From Myxococcales bacterium (GTDB lineage: Bacteria; Myxococcota_A; UBA9160; SMWR01): 45,990 nt of DNA. Position numbers and translations under genes: made by a program. The stretch covers positions 1 through 45,990 of the forward strand of contig JABSQW010000075.1 of the NCBI GenBank assembly GCA_013215605.1, written 5' to 3'. Under the pieces are notes generated by a model. It did not search any database, was not told where the DNA came from, and worked only from the letters and a program-made list of their open reading frames with translations. This document shows positions 15,006 through 21,467 of this stretch, piece after piece (position 1 is the stretch's first letter; each line of letters begins with the position of its first letter).

Positions 15006-16064
15006 TCAGCGCGCGAGGAGGCCTTCGTAGACTTGGTCGAGAATGGCCTCGACGTCGAACTGCGGGCGCCAGTCGGGGTAGTGGCCCTGGAATTTACGGA
15101 CGTCGCTGATCCACCAGATGTGGTCTCCCGCGCGGTTCGCCTCCTGGTAGCTCCACTGCATCGGGCGCCCCGTGAGCTTCTCGCAGTAGGCGATGGCCTC
15201 GCGCATCGAGCAGTTCGAATAGCGCGCGCCGCCCATGTTGTAGACCTCGCCCACGCGCGGCTCCTCGAAGAAATGCCAGAACGCGTCCACGAGGTCGCGC
15301 GAGTGGAGGTTGTCGCGGACCTGCTTTCCCTTGTAGCCGATGACGGTGTAGGGCTGGTCCTCGATCGCGCACTTCACGAGGTACGCGAGGAAGCCGTGCA
15401 GCTCGGCGCCCGAGTGCCCCGGACCCGTCAGGCAGCCTCCGCGGAAGCTCCCGGTCTTGAGCCCGAAGTAGCGCCCGTATTCCTGCACCATCAGGTCCGC
15501 CGCGACCTTGGACACGCCGAAGAGGCTGTGCATCGTCGAGTCGAGGCTCATGGTCTCGTCGATGCCGTGGGTGCCGAAGGGGTGGCTGTCGCCGAGCTCG
15601 TAGCGCGTCTCGAGCTCTTCGAGCGGGAGTCGGTTCGGCGTGTCCCCGTAGACCTTGTTCGTACTCGTGAAGATGAAGACGGCGTCGGGGCAGTGTGCGC
15701 GGGTGGCCTCGAGGAGATTCAGGGTGCCGTTCGCGTTGACCGTGAAGTCGGTCTTGGGCTCGCGGGCCGCCCAGTCGTGCGAGGGCTGCGCCGCGGCGTG
15801 GATGATCACGGAGATCGACTTGCCGTACCGTGCGAACAGGGCGTCGATCGCCTCGTCGTCGCGGATGTCGATCGCCTCGTGGCGGTAGCTCCGGAGTTCG
15901 GACTCGAGGCGGCGGCGCGCCCACTCGGTGCTGGCGTCGGGGCCGAAGAACACGCTGCGCATGTCGTTGTCGATCCCCACCACGTCGAATCCCCGGTCCG
16001 CGAAGAAGCGGCAGGATTCGGCGCCGATGAGGCCACCGGATCCGGTGACGACGGCGAGACTCAC
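15006..16064 (-). CDS. SDR sugar-nucleotide epimerase, CDP-tyvelose-2-epimerase-like, Phe at catalytic Tyr site
   Basis: The protein is 352 residues. The N-terminal [13 protein letters not shown] is the NAD-binding glycine motif, with Asp at the end of strand 2 (VVGIDND). STN at 134-136 and VYGDTPNR match extended SDR epimerases of the CDP-tyvelose 2-epimerase kind. The catalytic YxxxK appears as FGVSK (Phe 182, Lys 186). From memory, a recognisable clade of these proteins has this HSLFGxSK form, so it is probably a family trait rather than damage. C-terminal blocks NLHSRDL and [14 protein letters not shown] support the family. GTG 16064 was chosen because of the GTGA overlap with the upstream SDR; the two are probably made together and may act in sequence or as partners. 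Confidence 0.82.
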
Positions 16065-17158
16065 GGGCGATCGCTTCCCTGCGACGCAATTCCGGAGAGC
16101 AGCGGCGCGAGGGCTTCTCGGTGGTCCGACAGCCACTGGAAGACGTCGGTCAGGAGTTCCCCGATGCTCCGCTTCGGCGCCCAGCCGGTTTCGGCGATCG
16201 CGCGGCGGTTGTCGGTCACGTAGTAGGGGATGTCGGACGGGTGGGTCGTGGGGTCGCTCCCGAGGTCGAGCGTGCGCCCCGTAGCCTCCTCACAGAGCTG
16301 GGTGAGCTCCCGAAGCGACACGCTGTTGTCGGCCCCGCCACCCACGGCCAGCACGCGGCCCTGGTGAGGGGTCGGATCGGCGAGCTGGAGGGCGACGAGA
16401 TCGAAGAGGTCGTCGGCGTGGAGGACGTCGCGCACCTGTGCGCCGTCACCGCCGAAGCCCTTGTACCCGAGGTCGCCGCCGAAGAAATGCCGGGCGGCCC
16501 AGAGCGTGAGGAATCCCTGGTCGACCTTGCCCATCTGCCAGGGACCGGCGATGACCCCGCAGCGGTTCACAATGGCGCGCAGACCGTACATGTCCGCGTA
16601 CTCCTCGATCAGGTGCTCGGAGCAGAGTTTCGTGGCGCCGTAGAGCGAGCGGCTTCCGGCCATCGGAAAGTCGAGCGAGATGCCGTGCTTGGACCACCCC
16701 GGGCCGCTGGCGTCGTCCGCGATGACGAGGCGGTCGCCGCGGCGTTCGAAGGGCAGGTCTCGCAGCGGGGCGATCGGGTAGACGCGACTCGTCGATAGGA
16801 AGATCACACCGGCGTCGACCGTACGCGCGCGCTCGAGGCAGTTGATCGTACCGACGAGGTTCGTCTGGATCAGGTAGCGGGCGCCGGTGTCGTAGCCGGC
16901 CTGTACGCTCGGCTCGGCCGAGCACTCGAGGAGCCAGTCGATGGGCCCGACCGCGTCGAGGTCTTCGGGGTTGCGGATGTCGCCGTGAATGAAATCGACA
17001 CCGCCGTCGCGGAGCCTCGGCAAGGTGAGCTCACTGCCCCGCCGCTTGAGGTTGTCGAGGGCGATGACCTGGCAATCGACGCGCGTGCGCTTGAGGGACA
17101 GCGCGAGCGTGGAGCCGACGAATCCCGCCCCCCCCGTCACCAGAATCCGCTCAGGCAT
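16061..17158 (-). CDS. SDR NAD-dependent sugar-nucleotide epimerase/dehydratase
   Basis: The 365-residue protein has all the usual extended SDR marks: [11 protein letters not shown], Asp after strand 2 ([11 protein letters not shown]), STSRVY at the active-site Ser/Thr, and SLYGATK with Tyr 173 and Lys 177. It resembles CDP-paratose/tyvelose-type or UDP-sugar epimerases; the exact substrate cannot be told. It precedes and overlaps by 4 bp a second SDR that has Phe at the catalytic Tyr place. It is cytoplasmic, and its product would feed the glycosyltransferases of the locus. ATG 17158 was chosen because [10 protein letters not shown] places the fold at the N-terminus; the frame stays open to 17281 without coding character. 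Confidence 0.87.
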
Positions 17159-17282
17159 GCCGTATTCTGCTCTCGTCTCGCGAGGGGGTTGGGGGAGGTG
17201 GGGTTCTGCTGTTCCGTCATCCGCCGATTGGCCAAAAAGAATAGCGGGCCGGCCGGGCGTCTGGGGGCGGGCCGAGGTCACC

Positions 17283-17402
17283 GTGGTCTTCCATTCGCTC
17301 TCGTTCGTGCTGTTCTTCGCGGTCGTCCTCGTCGTTCACCTCGCGGCGCGTCGCCTTGCGCGGGCGGAAGCGGTTGGGGCCCGGCGCGCGCTCCTGCGGT
17401 GG
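17283..17402 (+). pseudogene. Apparent 5' remnant of an MBOAT (AlgI-like) acyltransferase gene
   Basis: GTG 17283, with GAGG at 17274-17277 as a good ribosome site, starts VVFHSLSFVLFFAVVLVVHL and about 18 more residues. This pattern (MxFxSxxFxxFF, then a hydrophobic helix and a basic turn) is that of the first segment of MBOAT O-acyltransferases such as AlgI. The likeness stops near 17400, just where the antisense sulfatase-like gene ends at 17406; the frame then runs on only as antisense of that gene. MBOAT genes usually pair with an SGNH-type partner, and such a gene lies on the same strand at 18881. A broken MBOAT gene is therefore inferred. The match is short and by eye. Confidence 0.45.
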
Positions 17403-17405
17403 GCG

Positions 17406-18809
17406 TCAGTCGGCGTAGCCGAGGGCGCGGAGGCCTTCGAGGGTTTCGGCGTCGAGGCGTTGCGGGGAGACGTCCTCGAGGGCGTCGAGGTGGCTCGCGA
17501 GCCGCTCGGTGTGAGCGACCAGATCGGCGGGGAGCGCAGCGTCGAGCGGCCGCGTTTCGTGCGGATCGTGGTCGACTCGGTAGTTCGCCGCTGCGGACGT
17601 TCGCGAGCGGATCGTCTTCCACGGCCATCGCAGGACCGCGAGCCGCTGCTCCCGGGGAGCCACGTTCTCTTCGAATGGCGGGTCGTGGTGGAGCTCCGCC
17701 ACGAGGTCGCGAGGTGCCAGATTTGCCGACAGGAGATCGCGACCCCGCATGCCGGCGGTGGGCTCCACACCGGCTCGCCGGAGCAGCGTCGTCGCCACGT
17801 CGATCAGGTCGACGGGCTCTTCGCGGCGCTCGCCGCGGCGCCCGGATCGGGGGTCGCGGAGGATCAGTGGAACGCGCAGCGATTCGGCGTGGAGCGAAAT
17901 CCCGTGGAACCAACCGCCGTGCTCGCCGAATTCCTCGCCGTGGTCGGATACCACGCAAATGACGCTGTCGCTCCCGTAGCCGCGCGCGGCAAGCGCCTCG
18001 AGCAGCTCTTCGATCGCAGCGTCGACGCTCGCAATCTCGGCGTCGTAGAGGTCGATCAGCCAGCGTCGGTCGCGATCACTGAGCTCGACCTCGCCGCGCG
18101 CCAGGGATTTCAAGAGCGACGACGACGCGAATTCATCCGCGCGGTAACCGGGGTCGCGGGCCAACCGCGCCCGGTGTTCGCTCGGCGGCGAGTACGCGGA
18201 GTGGGGGTCCATGTAGTGGACGTAGAGGAACAGCGGTGCATCGCCAGCGGGTGGCACCCGCTCGAGCACGGCGGCGTTGAGCTCGGGCGCATCGGGTGCC
18301 CTGCGGTAGACCGGTGTGCCCGCGGGGTCGGCATCGGTGAAGATCGCGTTTCCCTCGCCGCGGGTGGCCTTCGAGAGCGCGAACCAGTCGTCGAAGCCCC
18401 GCGCGAGGCCGGCGGGCTCGCTCACGTGGACGAAGTTTCCGGAGACGCCGACCGTTCGGTATCCCGCGTTGCGCAGCAGTTCGGCGAGGGTGGCGACCCC
18501 CGCGCGCAGGGGGCGCTCGAAGGCGGTTGCCCCGTGCTCGCTCGGCCACAGCGAGGTGAACAGGGAGGCCACCGCGGGTCGGGTCCAGGAGCTGGGGGAA
18601 TGGGCGTTCTCGAAGAGCACGCCTTCCCGGGCGAGGCGGTCGAGCGCGGGCGAGGTCGGGCGGTCGTACCCGTAGGCGCCGAGGTGGTCGGCGCGCAGGG
18701 TGTCGATCGTGATCAAGACGATGTCCGGCGGTTGCTCGGGCTCCGCCAGACGGCACCCCAGAGCGAACGCGGCGAGAGCCAGAGCAGTGGCGCAACGGAT
18801 CTCGGGCAC
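17406..18809 (-). CDS. Sulfatase-fold lipoprotein, Thr at nucleophile site
   Basis: The 467-residue protein has a lipoprotein signal (FALGC, Cys 19). The sulfatase-fold motifs are VLITIDTLRADHLG (Asp 36), SSWTRPAV (Thr 76 at the nucleophile place, no PSR), LYVHYMDPHSAY, and CVVSDHGEEFGEHGGW for the late metal site. It ends LRALGYAD like the relatives at 7497 and 20004. Thr makes classical formylglycine activation unlikely; a phosphodiesterase or phosphotransferase on envelope glycan or lipid is inferred. GTG 18809 lies 6 bases after a minus-strand TACGCT, so the message may be leaderless. The 3' end abuts the MBOAT remnant, suggesting this gene arrived by, or marks, the rearrangement that broke it. 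Confidence 0.82.
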   Translation of the reverse strand: MPEIRCATALALAAFALGCRLAEPEQPPDIVLITIDTLRADHLGAYGYDRPTSPALDRLAREGVLFENAHSPSSWTRPAVASLFTSLWPSEHGATAFERPLRAGVATLAELLRNAGYRTVGVSGNFVHVSEPAGLARGFDDWFALSKATRGEGNAIFTDADPAGTPVYRRAPDAPELNAAVLERVPPAGDAPLFLYVHYMDPHSAYSPPSEHRARLARDPGYRADEFASSSLLKSLARGEVELSDRDRRWLIDLYDAEIASVDAAIEELLEALAARGYGSDSVICVVSDHGEEFGEHGGWFHGISLHAESLRVPLILRDPRSGRRGERREEPVDLIDVATTLLRRAGVEPTAGMRGRDLLSANLAPRDLVAELHHDPPFEENVAPREQRLAVLRWPWKTIRSRTSAAANYRVDHDPHETRPLDAALPADLVAHTERLASHLDALEDVSPQRLDAETLEGLRALGYAD

Positions 18810-18815
18810 CGCGAT

Positions 18816-18821
18816 AGCGTA
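18816..18821 (-). promoter_or_regulatory. -10-like TACGCT, 6 nt before GTG 18809
   Basis: On the minus strand ATTACGCT is followed by ATCGCG and the GTG start. It belongs to the same class as the motifs at 11446, 11507, 28466 and 39065. No Shine-Dalgarno is possible in the gap. Confidence 0.4.
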
Positions 18822-18863
18822 ATTCTTCCGAACTTCGTTCGCCTTCGGCTCCGGCCGGGGCGC

Positions 18864-18875
18864 TGTGGTACCACA
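18864..18875. promoter_or_regulatory. 12-bp palindrome TGTGGTACCACA in a divergent gap
   Basis: This is a perfect palindrome five bases before the SGNH gene start, in the 71-bp gap shared with the divergent sulfatase-like gene. It could be an operator or part of the promoter. No regulator gene is present in the window. Confidence 0.3.
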
Positions 18876-18880
18876 CCGGG

Positions 18881-20023
18881 GTGGCGCCGCCCGTTTCGAA
18901 GAGCCCGACCCTGCGCGCTCTGGCGAACACCGCCATCGGTGTCGGCTGTGGCGTGCTCTTCTTCGTGATGATCGAAGGACTGTTCAGCACGTGGATCGCC
19001 CTGGACACGATGTTTCCCCAGGACCGCATCGCCGAGCGTCTCCACACCCGCCACGATCCGTTGCTCGGCTGGGTCAACGTCCCGGATCGCGAGTTTCCCG
19101 ACTTCTACGGCCCTGGGCGGGATCTGAGCATCAACCCTCAGGGCTTCCGCGCCGCGCGCGACGTGTATCCCGCGGATCCGGGCGATCGCATTCGGATGAT
19201 CTGCTCCGGGGACTCGTTTGCGATGGGCTACGGCGTCGGCAATCTCGACACCTGGTGCCACGGCCTCGAGTCGCGGTTGGAAGGGTTGGAAGGGGAAGCT
19301 GTCGAGACCCTCAACATGGGGCAGGGCGGCTACGGGGTCGATCAGGCGTACCTGTGGTTCCGCCGCGACGCCGGCGAACTCGGTCACTCCGTCCACCTGT
19401 TTACGTTCACGACGGGCGACTTCGAGCGAATGCTGTGGGACGAGTTCTCGGGCTACCTGAAGCCCCTCCTCGTCACGGGTGACGGCGGTCTCGTCGTCGC
19501 GAACGAACCACTCCCGGAGCCGGGGATCGCCGATACGCTGCGGCGCACTCCGTTCAAGCTGCTCGCTTTTCGCAGCGTGCAGGGGCTGTTCAGCTTCGGG
19601 AAGTCACTGCGCGACCTCGATGAGCGCCGCGCGATTCGCTCGCGCGAGCAGGCGCGGGTGATCTCGCTGCTGTTCGAGGACCTCGTGGCCATCAACCATC
19701 GGAAGTCGAGCGCGCTGTTCGCGGTGCTGCTCCCGACCGAGGTCGAGGTCACGTCCGGGTCGGCGTCCCCAGAGCGCGCGCATCTGCGCGGCGAGCTTGC
19801 GCGCCTGGGCGTTCCTTTCTGGGATCTCACGGCGGACTTCCGCCGCATCTCCCGCGACGACCTCGCCTCGCACTTCATCCCCGCCGACGATCCGCTGGTG
19901 CGGGACTTCCCGGGCGCGCCGGGCCACTACAACGAAAAGGGCAACGCCTTCGTCGCCGACGTGTTGAGCGCCCGGCTGCGCGCGTCGGGGCTCCTCGGGA
20001 ATCGTGGGCCGGCGGGTTCTTGA
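18881..20023 (+). CDS. SGNH/GDSL-family hydrolase, membrane-anchored
   Basis: The 380-residue protein has one N-terminal membrane span (about 17-38), so it is probably anchored and periplasmic. Block I is MICSGDSFAMGYGVG, with Ser 112 as nucleophile. NMGQGGYGVDQ gives the Gly/oxyanion part, and GHYNEKGN near the C-terminus gives the catalytic His with acidic residues just before. Such proteins are commonly found beside MBOAT acyltransferases as AlgJ/AlgX-like partners in glycan O-acetylation; here only an MBOAT remnant lies upstream, beyond the inverted sulfatase-like gene. It may act alone as an esterase or use an MBOAT elsewhere. The start is GTG 18881. The 3' end overlaps the next gene by 20 bp. 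Confidence 0.82.
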   Translation: MAPPVSKSPTLRALANTAIGVGCGVLFFVMIEGLFSTWIALDTMFPQDRIAERLHTRHDPLLGWVNVPDREFPDFYGPGRDLSINPQGFRAARDVYPADPGDRIRMICSGDSFAMGYGVGNLDTWCHGLESRLEGLEGEAVETLNMGQGGYGVDQAYLWFRRDAGELGHSVHLFTFTTGDFERMLWDEFSGYLKPLLVTGDGGLVVANEPLPEPGIADTLRRTPFKLLAFRSVQGLFSFGKSLRDLDERRAIRSREQARVISLLFEDLVAINHRKSSALFAVLLPTEVEVTSGSASPERAHLRGELARLGVPFWDLTADFRRISRDDLASHFIPADDPLVRDFPGAPGHYNEKGNAFVADVLSARLRASGLLGNRGPAGS

Positions 20024-21467
20024 GATCCGCCGGGCGTCGGCCCGAGCACGCATCGGGCCCCGGCTCCTCGCGGTCTGCCTGCTCGTCTGCCCGGGGTGCG
20101 ACGTGCCTGAACCTTCGTCCGCGAGCGCTGGCCGCGACGGCCCCCGCCCCGACCTCGTACTGGTGTCGATCGACAGCCTGCGCGCCGATCACGTCGGTTG
20201 CTACGGCTACCCGCACCCCACGACGCCCGCCCTCGACGCGCTCGCCCGGGGTGGGGTCCGGTTCGAGACCGCGACGAGTACGACATCGTGGACGCTGCCC
20301 TCGCATGCCGCGCTCTTCACCGGTCTGCCCGACTCCAGCCACGGCCTCATCGACAACGGTCTGAGCCTCGACGCGGAACACGTCACTCTCGCCGAGACGC
20401 TCCGCGACGCGGGCTACGCAACGGCGGGGTTCTACGGCGGGCCCTACCTGCACCCCACCTTTGGCCTCGCCCAGGGCTTCGACCACTACCAGAGCTGCAT
20501 GGCGGCCTTCGGCGATGCCGCCGCCGGCGACGCGGTGCGAGCCGAGGCGCGCGCGCGCAAGGCGGCGGCTCACGCCGACGTCACCGGGCCGCGCACGCTC
20601 GCGGCGGTGGAGCGATTCCTCGCCCAGCGCGACGAACGGCCCGTCTTCCTGTTCGTTCACCTCTGGGACGTCCACTACGACTACATCCCGCCGCCCGGCT
20701 ACGCGCGCCGCTTCGACCCCGACTACACGGGGACGCTCACCGGCGTCGGCGTCATGCGCAATCCGCGCATCCGCCGGGGAATGCCCGCCCGCGACCTGGC
20801 CCATCTGGTCGCGCTCTACGACGCCGAGGTCCGCTTCACGGATGACGTGCTCGGTCGCATCCTCGCGGCCGTCGAAGCGTCCCCGGGTGCCAGAGGGTCG
20901 GTCGTCGCGGTGACGGCGGACCACGGCGAGGAGTTTCTCGAACACGGGAGCCGCGGTCACGCGCAGACGCTGTTCGACGAGGTGCTGCGGATTCCCCTGG
21001 TCATTCACGCGCCGGGGCGTGTCCCGGCGGGCGTCGTCGTCGAGGAACCGGTTCAGATCCTCGACGTCATGCCGACGCTGCTGGGCCTCGCGGGGGTCGC
21101 CGCGCCAGCGCACGTGCTGGGCCGCGACCTCAGCGCGCTGTGGAGCGGTCGCGTCGGCGCTGTCCCGCCGGCTCTCGCGGAGCTCCACATCGACGATCGC
21201 GAACTTTTCGCGCTGCGGAGCCCCGACGCGAAGTTCCTCGCGTTCCGCGGCGGTGCGTCGTGGTTCGATCTCGGCGCCGATCCCGGCGAGCAGCATCCGC
21301 AGCCGCCCCGCGGAGTTCGCTTCGCCTCGGGGCGCGCGCAGCTGCTCGCCGCCCTCGCCGAGGCGCGCGCAGCGGGCGCCGCCGCGGGCCACCCCGGAGC
21401 GTCTCCGGTCGCACTCGAGGCGGGAGTGCGCGAGCGGCTCGAAGCTCTCGGGTACGTCGAACCCTAG
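20004..21467 (+). CDS. Sulfatase-fold periplasmic protein, Thr at nucleophile site
   Basis: The protein is 487 residues. The N-terminus is basic then hydrophobic (LLAVCLLVCPGC), probably a lipoprotein signal with an imperfect lipobox. Motifs are LVLVSIDSLRADHVG (Asp 57), TSWTLPSH (Thr 97 at the nucleophile place), FLFVHLWDVHYDY and AVTADHGEEFLEHGS. It ends LEALGYVEP. It is nearest in layout to the protein at 17406, and shares the WTLPSH motif with the one at 7497. Reaction and substrate are unknown; a phospho- or sulfo-group on an envelope glycan is inferred. GTG 20004 lies inside the SGNH gene, so the two are co-transcribed. It is convergent with the next gene; no clear hairpin was found in the 99-bp gap. 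Confidence 0.82.
   Translation: MGRRVLEIRRASARARIGPRLLAVCLLVCPGCDVPEPSSASAGRDGPRPDLVLVSIDSLRADHVGCYGYPHPTTPALDALARGGVRFETATSTTSWTLPSHAALFTGLPDSSHGLIDNGLSLDAEHVTLAETLRDAGYATAGFYGGPYLHPTFGLAQGFDHYQSCMAAFGDAAAGDAVRAEARARKAAAHADVTGPRTLAAVERFLAQRDERPVFLFVHLWDVHYDYIPPPGYARRFDPDYTGTLTGVGVMRNPRIRRGMPARDLAHLVALYDAEVRFTDDVLGRILAAVEASPGARGSVVAVTADHGEEFLEHGSRGHAQTLFDEVLRIPLVIHAPGRVPAGVVVEEPVQILDVMPTLLGLAGVAAPAHVLGRDLSALWSGRVGAVPPALAELHIDDRELFALRSPDAKFLAFRGGASWFDLGADPGEQHPQPPRGVRFASGRAQLLAALAEARAAGAAAGHPGASPVALEAGVRERLEALGYVEP

Follow-up and report, generated by a model that had tools for sequence, protein, structure and literature searches.

What remains of a gene whose start is followed, after 41 codons, by the stop codon of another gene on the opposite strand, and how could it have come to this state? 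The question is raised by a locus on contig JABSQW010000075.1 of a Myxococcales bacterium (assembly GCA_013215605.1), in the window, that is, the whole stretch of 45,990 nucleotides that was analysed. The original prediction saw here a broken MBOAT gene, separated from its SGNH partner by an inverted sulfatase-like gene that had taken the place of the MBOAT body, possibly exchanging acylation for another modification. The layout itself is as described: a ribosome site (GAGGT) and a GTG start codon are present in the sequence, the frame that they open runs into the 3′ end of an antisense sulfatase-like gene with a full PF00884 match (sulfA; E 3.1e-48), and an SGNH-type gene stands just beyond it on the strand of the stub (Table 1). 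From the GTG, the frame reads VVFHSLSFVLFFAVVLVVHLAARRLARA... for 41 codons, up to the antisense sulfatase-like stop codon (17406-17408), which abuts it. The reading that we favour, at a probability of about 0.6, is that the stub is an MBOAT 5′ remnant left by a single deletion, with the SGNH gene as an unrelated neighbour.

Table 1. Features around the truncated MBOAT gene, in window coordinates.
Feature	Position	Strand	Basis
Second epimerase gene, left of the stub	15006-16064	opposite to the stub	
NAD-dependent epimerase gene, divergent neighbour and synteny anchor	16061-17158	-	
Ribosome-binding site GAGGT of the presumed lost MBOAT gene	17274-17278	+	sequence
MBOAT 5′ stub, GTG start, 41 codons in all	17283-17405	+	homology
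Break zone, from the end of clear MBOAT homology to the sulfatase-like stop codon	17366-17408	.	profile and sequence
sulfA, intact sulfatase-like gene (alkaline phosphatase superfamily), possible lipoprotein, SSWTRP instead of CxPxR	17406-18809	-	
SGNH/GDSL-type gene, product with a long hydrophobic helix at the N-terminus, probably not MBOAT-linked	18881-20023	+	
Second sulfatase-like gene, a neighbour outside the broken gene, sharing 20 bases with the SGNH gene	20004-21467	+	

Judged by its sequence, the beginning of the stub is clearly the N-terminus of an MBOAT O-acyltransferase, over the 19-28 codons that the alignment supports and not the approximately 38 recognisable residues first counted. 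The comparison with MBOAT N-termini proposed at the outset gives a significant match that begins at the start codon. Thus, when the six frames of the 80.7-kb contig were searched, as three pieces, with an MBOAT N-terminal profile of 60 positions, the stub was the sole significant match on the whole contig (E 6.9e-6, the next best reaching 5.8), and in a search of its own genome it scored E 0.0011, the next non-MBOAT match being at 0.25. At the DNA level, the sequence from 17281 is 77% identical over 91 bp (E 1.1e-11) to the start of one MBOAT gene of the same genome, and 80% identical over 59 bp (E 1.3e-7) to that of a second. The N-terminal segment FxSxxFxxFF at the start codon is likewise present in the stub. 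Over the first 19 codons, pN/pS values, which come from few sites, are 0.36, 0.19 and 0.30 between the stub and three MBOATs, and 0.31, 0.22 and 0.25 among those three intact genes; over 27 codons the picture is less clear, with 0.51-0.91 for the stub versus 0.48-0.59 among the intact genes. Since nonsynonymous change is rarer than synonymous change in the first 19 codons, the stub was probably selected as a protein until recently.

A short and hydrophobic open frame might resemble MBOAT starts by chance, and neither Pfam nor NCBIfam calls the 41-residue stub. However, such an accident is hardly credible in view of the profile and DNA E values, the coincidence of the beginning of the match with a start codon behind a ribosome site, and pN/pS well under 1 over 19 codons. 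It could also be thought that the stub is a translocated 5′ fragment, the duplicated start of a paralogue, and that a whole gene never stood here, given that two paralogues in the same genome have similar starts. This is improbable: DNA identity of only 77-80% means that the stub is no recent copy of either, and the similarity starts at the start codon and excludes the upstream DNA of the paralogues. The stub is too short to be placed firmly among the MBOAT subtypes, and the former partner of its gene is therefore uncertain.

The rest of the MBOAT gene is absent from the contig. There is no PF03062 match on it, and the search for MBOAT family genes in the genome found ten places, all of them on other contigs. 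The comparison of 20 MBOATs with the contig by tblastn, composition correction being off, produced weak scattered hits and no credible body match; the best of them (E 0.002, 25% identity) lies inside another gene. Among these comparison MBOATs, the only sequences in which GLWHG itself was looked for, this motif occurs in 20 of 20 and an F[ILV]YFQF C-terminus in 19 of 20. A C-terminal hexapeptide with its invariant Tyr, i.e., an FxYFQF-like end, was not found near the locus, where a single stray FLYVF lies at 190. The profile matches also locate the break. In 17 genomes of the family, own genome included, there were 30 matches at E ≤ 0.05; 28 of these extend to profile position 59-60, and the two exceptions are the stub, confined to positions 2-25, and a weak match (E 0.02) at 9-36. 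The MBOAT block that comes next, LLxASYLFYAAWN, is the most conserved one; the stub lacks it or, on a generous reading, breaks off within its first residues, and a match to it of the 13 codons that precede the sulfatase-like stop is only arguable. Given that clear homology extends over 19-28 residues and that this block is missing or cut, the break falls between about 17366 and 17408.

Profile, tblastn and motif searches found no MBOAT remnant beyond sulfA or elsewhere on the contig; one junction is therefore seen, and not two, which speaks against the suggested replacement of, or insertion into, the MBOAT gene by sulfA. An insertion that left a 3′ remnant was rejected on the same ground, and an insertion of sulfA combined with a second break that removed the remaining MBOAT sequence would leave the same picture as a deletion. 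In the PatA/PatB mechanism (PMC12148441), a His and the Tyr of the C-terminal hexapeptide are essential. As its sequence stands, the stub cannot encode an acyltransferase, since the remaining membrane bundle is missing and so are the histidine of GLWHG and the Tyr motif of the C-terminus.

The stub frame has no stop until 18966, which is due to the openness of the antisense frame of sulfA. When sulfA and nine orthologues were compared, this antisense frame was open throughout in 5 of the 10, and its openness is therefore a by-product of composition; the coding score per codon is 0.26 in the stub versus 0.03 beyond the break. On these grounds, a real fused gene of 561 codons was discarded. A stub that is still alive is very improbable; in that case, its ribosome site, start and presumed promoter would drive antisense transcription through sulfA towards the SGNH gene, thereby regulating sulfA, or a chimera of 561 residues would be produced, with an MBOAT signal-anchor followed by antisense-coded sequence.

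The protein encoded by the SGNH gene has the features of the SGNH superfamily (a GDS motif, a late His and the SGNH fold): its Lipase_GDSL_2 score in Pfam is 17.1 bits, under the cut-off of 32.9, and its predicted model, with a mean pLDDT of 86.1, matches TesA and GDSL esterases among 54 PDB matches at E ≤ 0.001. Within its family, D111, S112 and H349 are invariant in 24 sequences, and in another set of eight, two lack an exact GDS. The SGNH gene and the second sulfatase-like gene (18881-21467), which overlap by 20 bases, probably form one operon. Relatives of the SGNH gene were surveyed in a pattern-based, non-exhaustive set with one genome per species, from which records of the genome that the window comes from, or of one very close to it, may be missing; this gave 70 loci across many phyla, and the libraries searched assign no role to the family. 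An MBOAT lies in the flanks, of up to 8 kb, of 1 of these 70 loci (L155, 4,288 bp away), many of the loci being cut by contig ends. In ten SGNH-relative loci of the order (L031-L040), some of whose contigs are shared with the 70, no MBOAT was found at E 1e-5. Of 78 loci, made up of the 70 and 8 of the order and partly overlapping, 9 have a sulfatase-like gene, and the linkage of SGNH and sulfatase-like genes is consequently not conserved.

The MBOATs nearest to those that share the stub's start have, in turn, a partner of another kind. Six of the eight (L042, L043, L100-L105) are followed by a gene of the L043:8444-9388 type, L043 itself being the query; of the other two, L042 is near a contig end and L103 has no gene called downstream. 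Sequence comparison of this type with the SGNH family of the window gave nothing useful (a best BLASTP E of 0.13 and an hhalign probability of 3.3). In genome G004, another match of the stub has as its neighbour a protein with weak GDSL resemblance (E 0.02 for Lipase_GDSL_2, below the cut-off). When a lost partner was sought elsewhere in the genome, the L043-type partner was found to occur once, on contig C654. With an MBOAT at only one of 70 family loci and a sequence-unrelated partner behind the close MBOATs, the SGNH gene was probably not the former partner of the stub MBOAT, contrary to the original prediction; it would belong to a separate, self-standing family and appears to have been a neighbour of sulfatase-like genes.

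An insertion of sulfA into the MBOAT body, or its replacement by sulfA, with this SGNH gene as the partner and with acylation giving way to another modification, fits in one respect: the distance from the MBOAT start to the SGNH start, 1,598 bases, would accommodate an MBOAT of 470 codons. It is quite improbable, however, taking into account the SGNH family's lack of linkage to MBOATs, the different partner of the close MBOATs, the missing 3′ remnant before 18881, and the neighbourhoods of sulfA itself. The closest sulfA orthologues, with 42-55% identity, come from ten loci with varied neighbours, none of which (0/10) has an adjoining MBOAT. In one of them, L070, an MBOAT of another type lies 7.4 kb away, and the start of this gene is the only match of the N-terminal profile over the ten loci (E 0.0093). 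In another, L065, there is a weak SGNH match (28%, 38.9 bits) at 1.7 kb.

The product of sulfA does not help the idea of an exchange of modifications either. FGly sulfatases carry the nucleophile signature C/S-x-P-x-R (CxPxR). This signature was not found within the first 130 residues in sulfA or in any of 12 other sulfatase-like proteins, one of which (L069) lacks its start, and all 24 NCBIfam matches of sulfA are below their cut-offs. The stretch SSWT[KR]P occurs in 8 of the nine sulfA orthologues examined, the pattern finding none in the ninth (L066). A swap thus finds no support in the absence of CxPxR, the varied places in which the relatives of sulfA are found, and the ten other MBOAT genes that the genome has kept. 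Another possibility raised at the outset, that the stub is a short non-coding element conserved upstream of the sulfatase gene, was looked for and not found: in 79 genomes of the order, a 42-residue query recovered only the window and three full-length MBOATs. Repeats flanking sulfA were also sought, and discarded, since those present are weak and chance-like or reflect homology between the two sulfatase-like genes.

No relative was found with an intact MBOAT-SGNH pair at this place. Orthologues of the epimerase gene adjacent to the stub were found in five other genomes of the order, and a search of the class (90 genomes, E 1e-80) added none. The side that faces the stub is readable in four of the five and has no MBOAT; the fifth is cut by a contig end at this point. 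Since an intact MBOAT was not found at the site in any genome, we infer, as the simplest history, both that such a gene once stood here and that it was lost by one deletion. On this view, a PatA/DltB-like O-acyltransferase gene whose product ended in an FxYFQF motif would once have been whole here, with the stub as what is left of its 5′ end. A single deletion may have started around MBOAT codon 28-42, continued through the body and any partner gene after it, and ended just past the stop codon of the convergent sulfatase-like gene, which would have been kept whole and would now lie antisense to the stub. One deletion would explain all that is seen by a single junction, as well as why this junction stops where sulfA begins to matter.

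The main rival to a deletion, owing to the draft nature of the assembly, is an artefact of assembly or binning that joined an MBOAT start and a sulfatase-like 3′ end from different places or strains. The genome consists of 713 contigs and is 89.9% complete with 4.69% contamination; the junction all but coincides with a stop codon, the 3′ ends of sulfatase-like genes are found more than once in the genome (29 bp at 93% to C354; 38 bp at 84% to C688), and the stub still resembles selected coding sequence across 19 codons. All the same, a misjoin is unlikely. The contig is 80.7 kb long, and its G+C content changes little across the junction, staying at 0.655-0.735 in steps of 200 bases between 16801 and 19000. 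Exact matches to the junction in the genome are of at most 19 bases among those listed, although a somewhat longer exact run may be contained in the 29-bp match at 93%, and a headless body of the stub type at a contig end is not apparent at any of the ten places where the genome has an MBOAT. All told, the stub is a genuine 5′ remnant of a gene, of an ordinary kind.

The importance of this remnant beyond the locus is small. It is a case of gene loss, in a surface-glycan region with many MBOAT and sulfatase-like genes, from an uncultured lineage whose relatives are labelled Deltaproteobacteria or Myxococcota MAGs. It also serves as a warning against taking an SGNH gene near an MBOAT fragment for its functional partner, the two families here being unlinked elsewhere. 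A literature search on truncated or pseudogene MBOATs in bacterial genomes found nothing, and no claim is made that such stubs are unreported.

Several other MBOAT loci deserve mention in their own right. In the same genome, a sulfatase-like gene, an MBOAT and a partner gene stand in a row on one strand (L043:8444-12239), with 12 bases between the first two. A family of proteins of about 320 residues with a G[SA]SR motif is encoded directly behind MBOATs (L043:8444-9388, L100:7483-8466, L101:9752-10744, L104:8969-9964 and L105:10065-11021); three members tested had no Pfam match over the cut-off, and the one tested had no NCBIfam match. At L047:8390-9646, an MBOAT of another type is apparently split into two called pieces, perhaps by a frameshift or a sequencing error, and a gene 79% identical to it, L070:971-2164, is a single frame. 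Finally, at G011:C77:3388-4794, an MBOAT start lies in an open frame of 128 residues with a body match further on, possibly a second broken MBOAT in this bacterial family.

Regarding known systems, sulfA shares with the FGly sulfatases and phosphoethanolamine transferases a full match to the PF00884 superfamily, and differs from the former in having SSWTRP in place of CxPxR. The only NCBIfam match of the window's SGNH protein is to the LA_2490-family SGNH/GDSL-type esterases (NF047475), of which it is not a member, its 40.9 bits being far below the curated cut-off of 325 bits. The intact relatives of the stub are MBOATs of the kind found in PatA/PatB and other bacterial MBOAT-SGNH pairs (PMC12148441), and have GLWHG and an FIYFQF-type hexapeptide, whereas the stub lacks both active-site parts and the SGNH gene near it belongs to another family than the genes downstream of the closest MBOATs. 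Within the genome itself, the MBOATs on C199 (L042) and C654 (L043), 70-79% identical to the stub over the N-terminal 19-20 residues and 77-80% in the DNA of the start region, are whole proteins of 473 and 471 residues, respectively, in contrast to the truncated stub.
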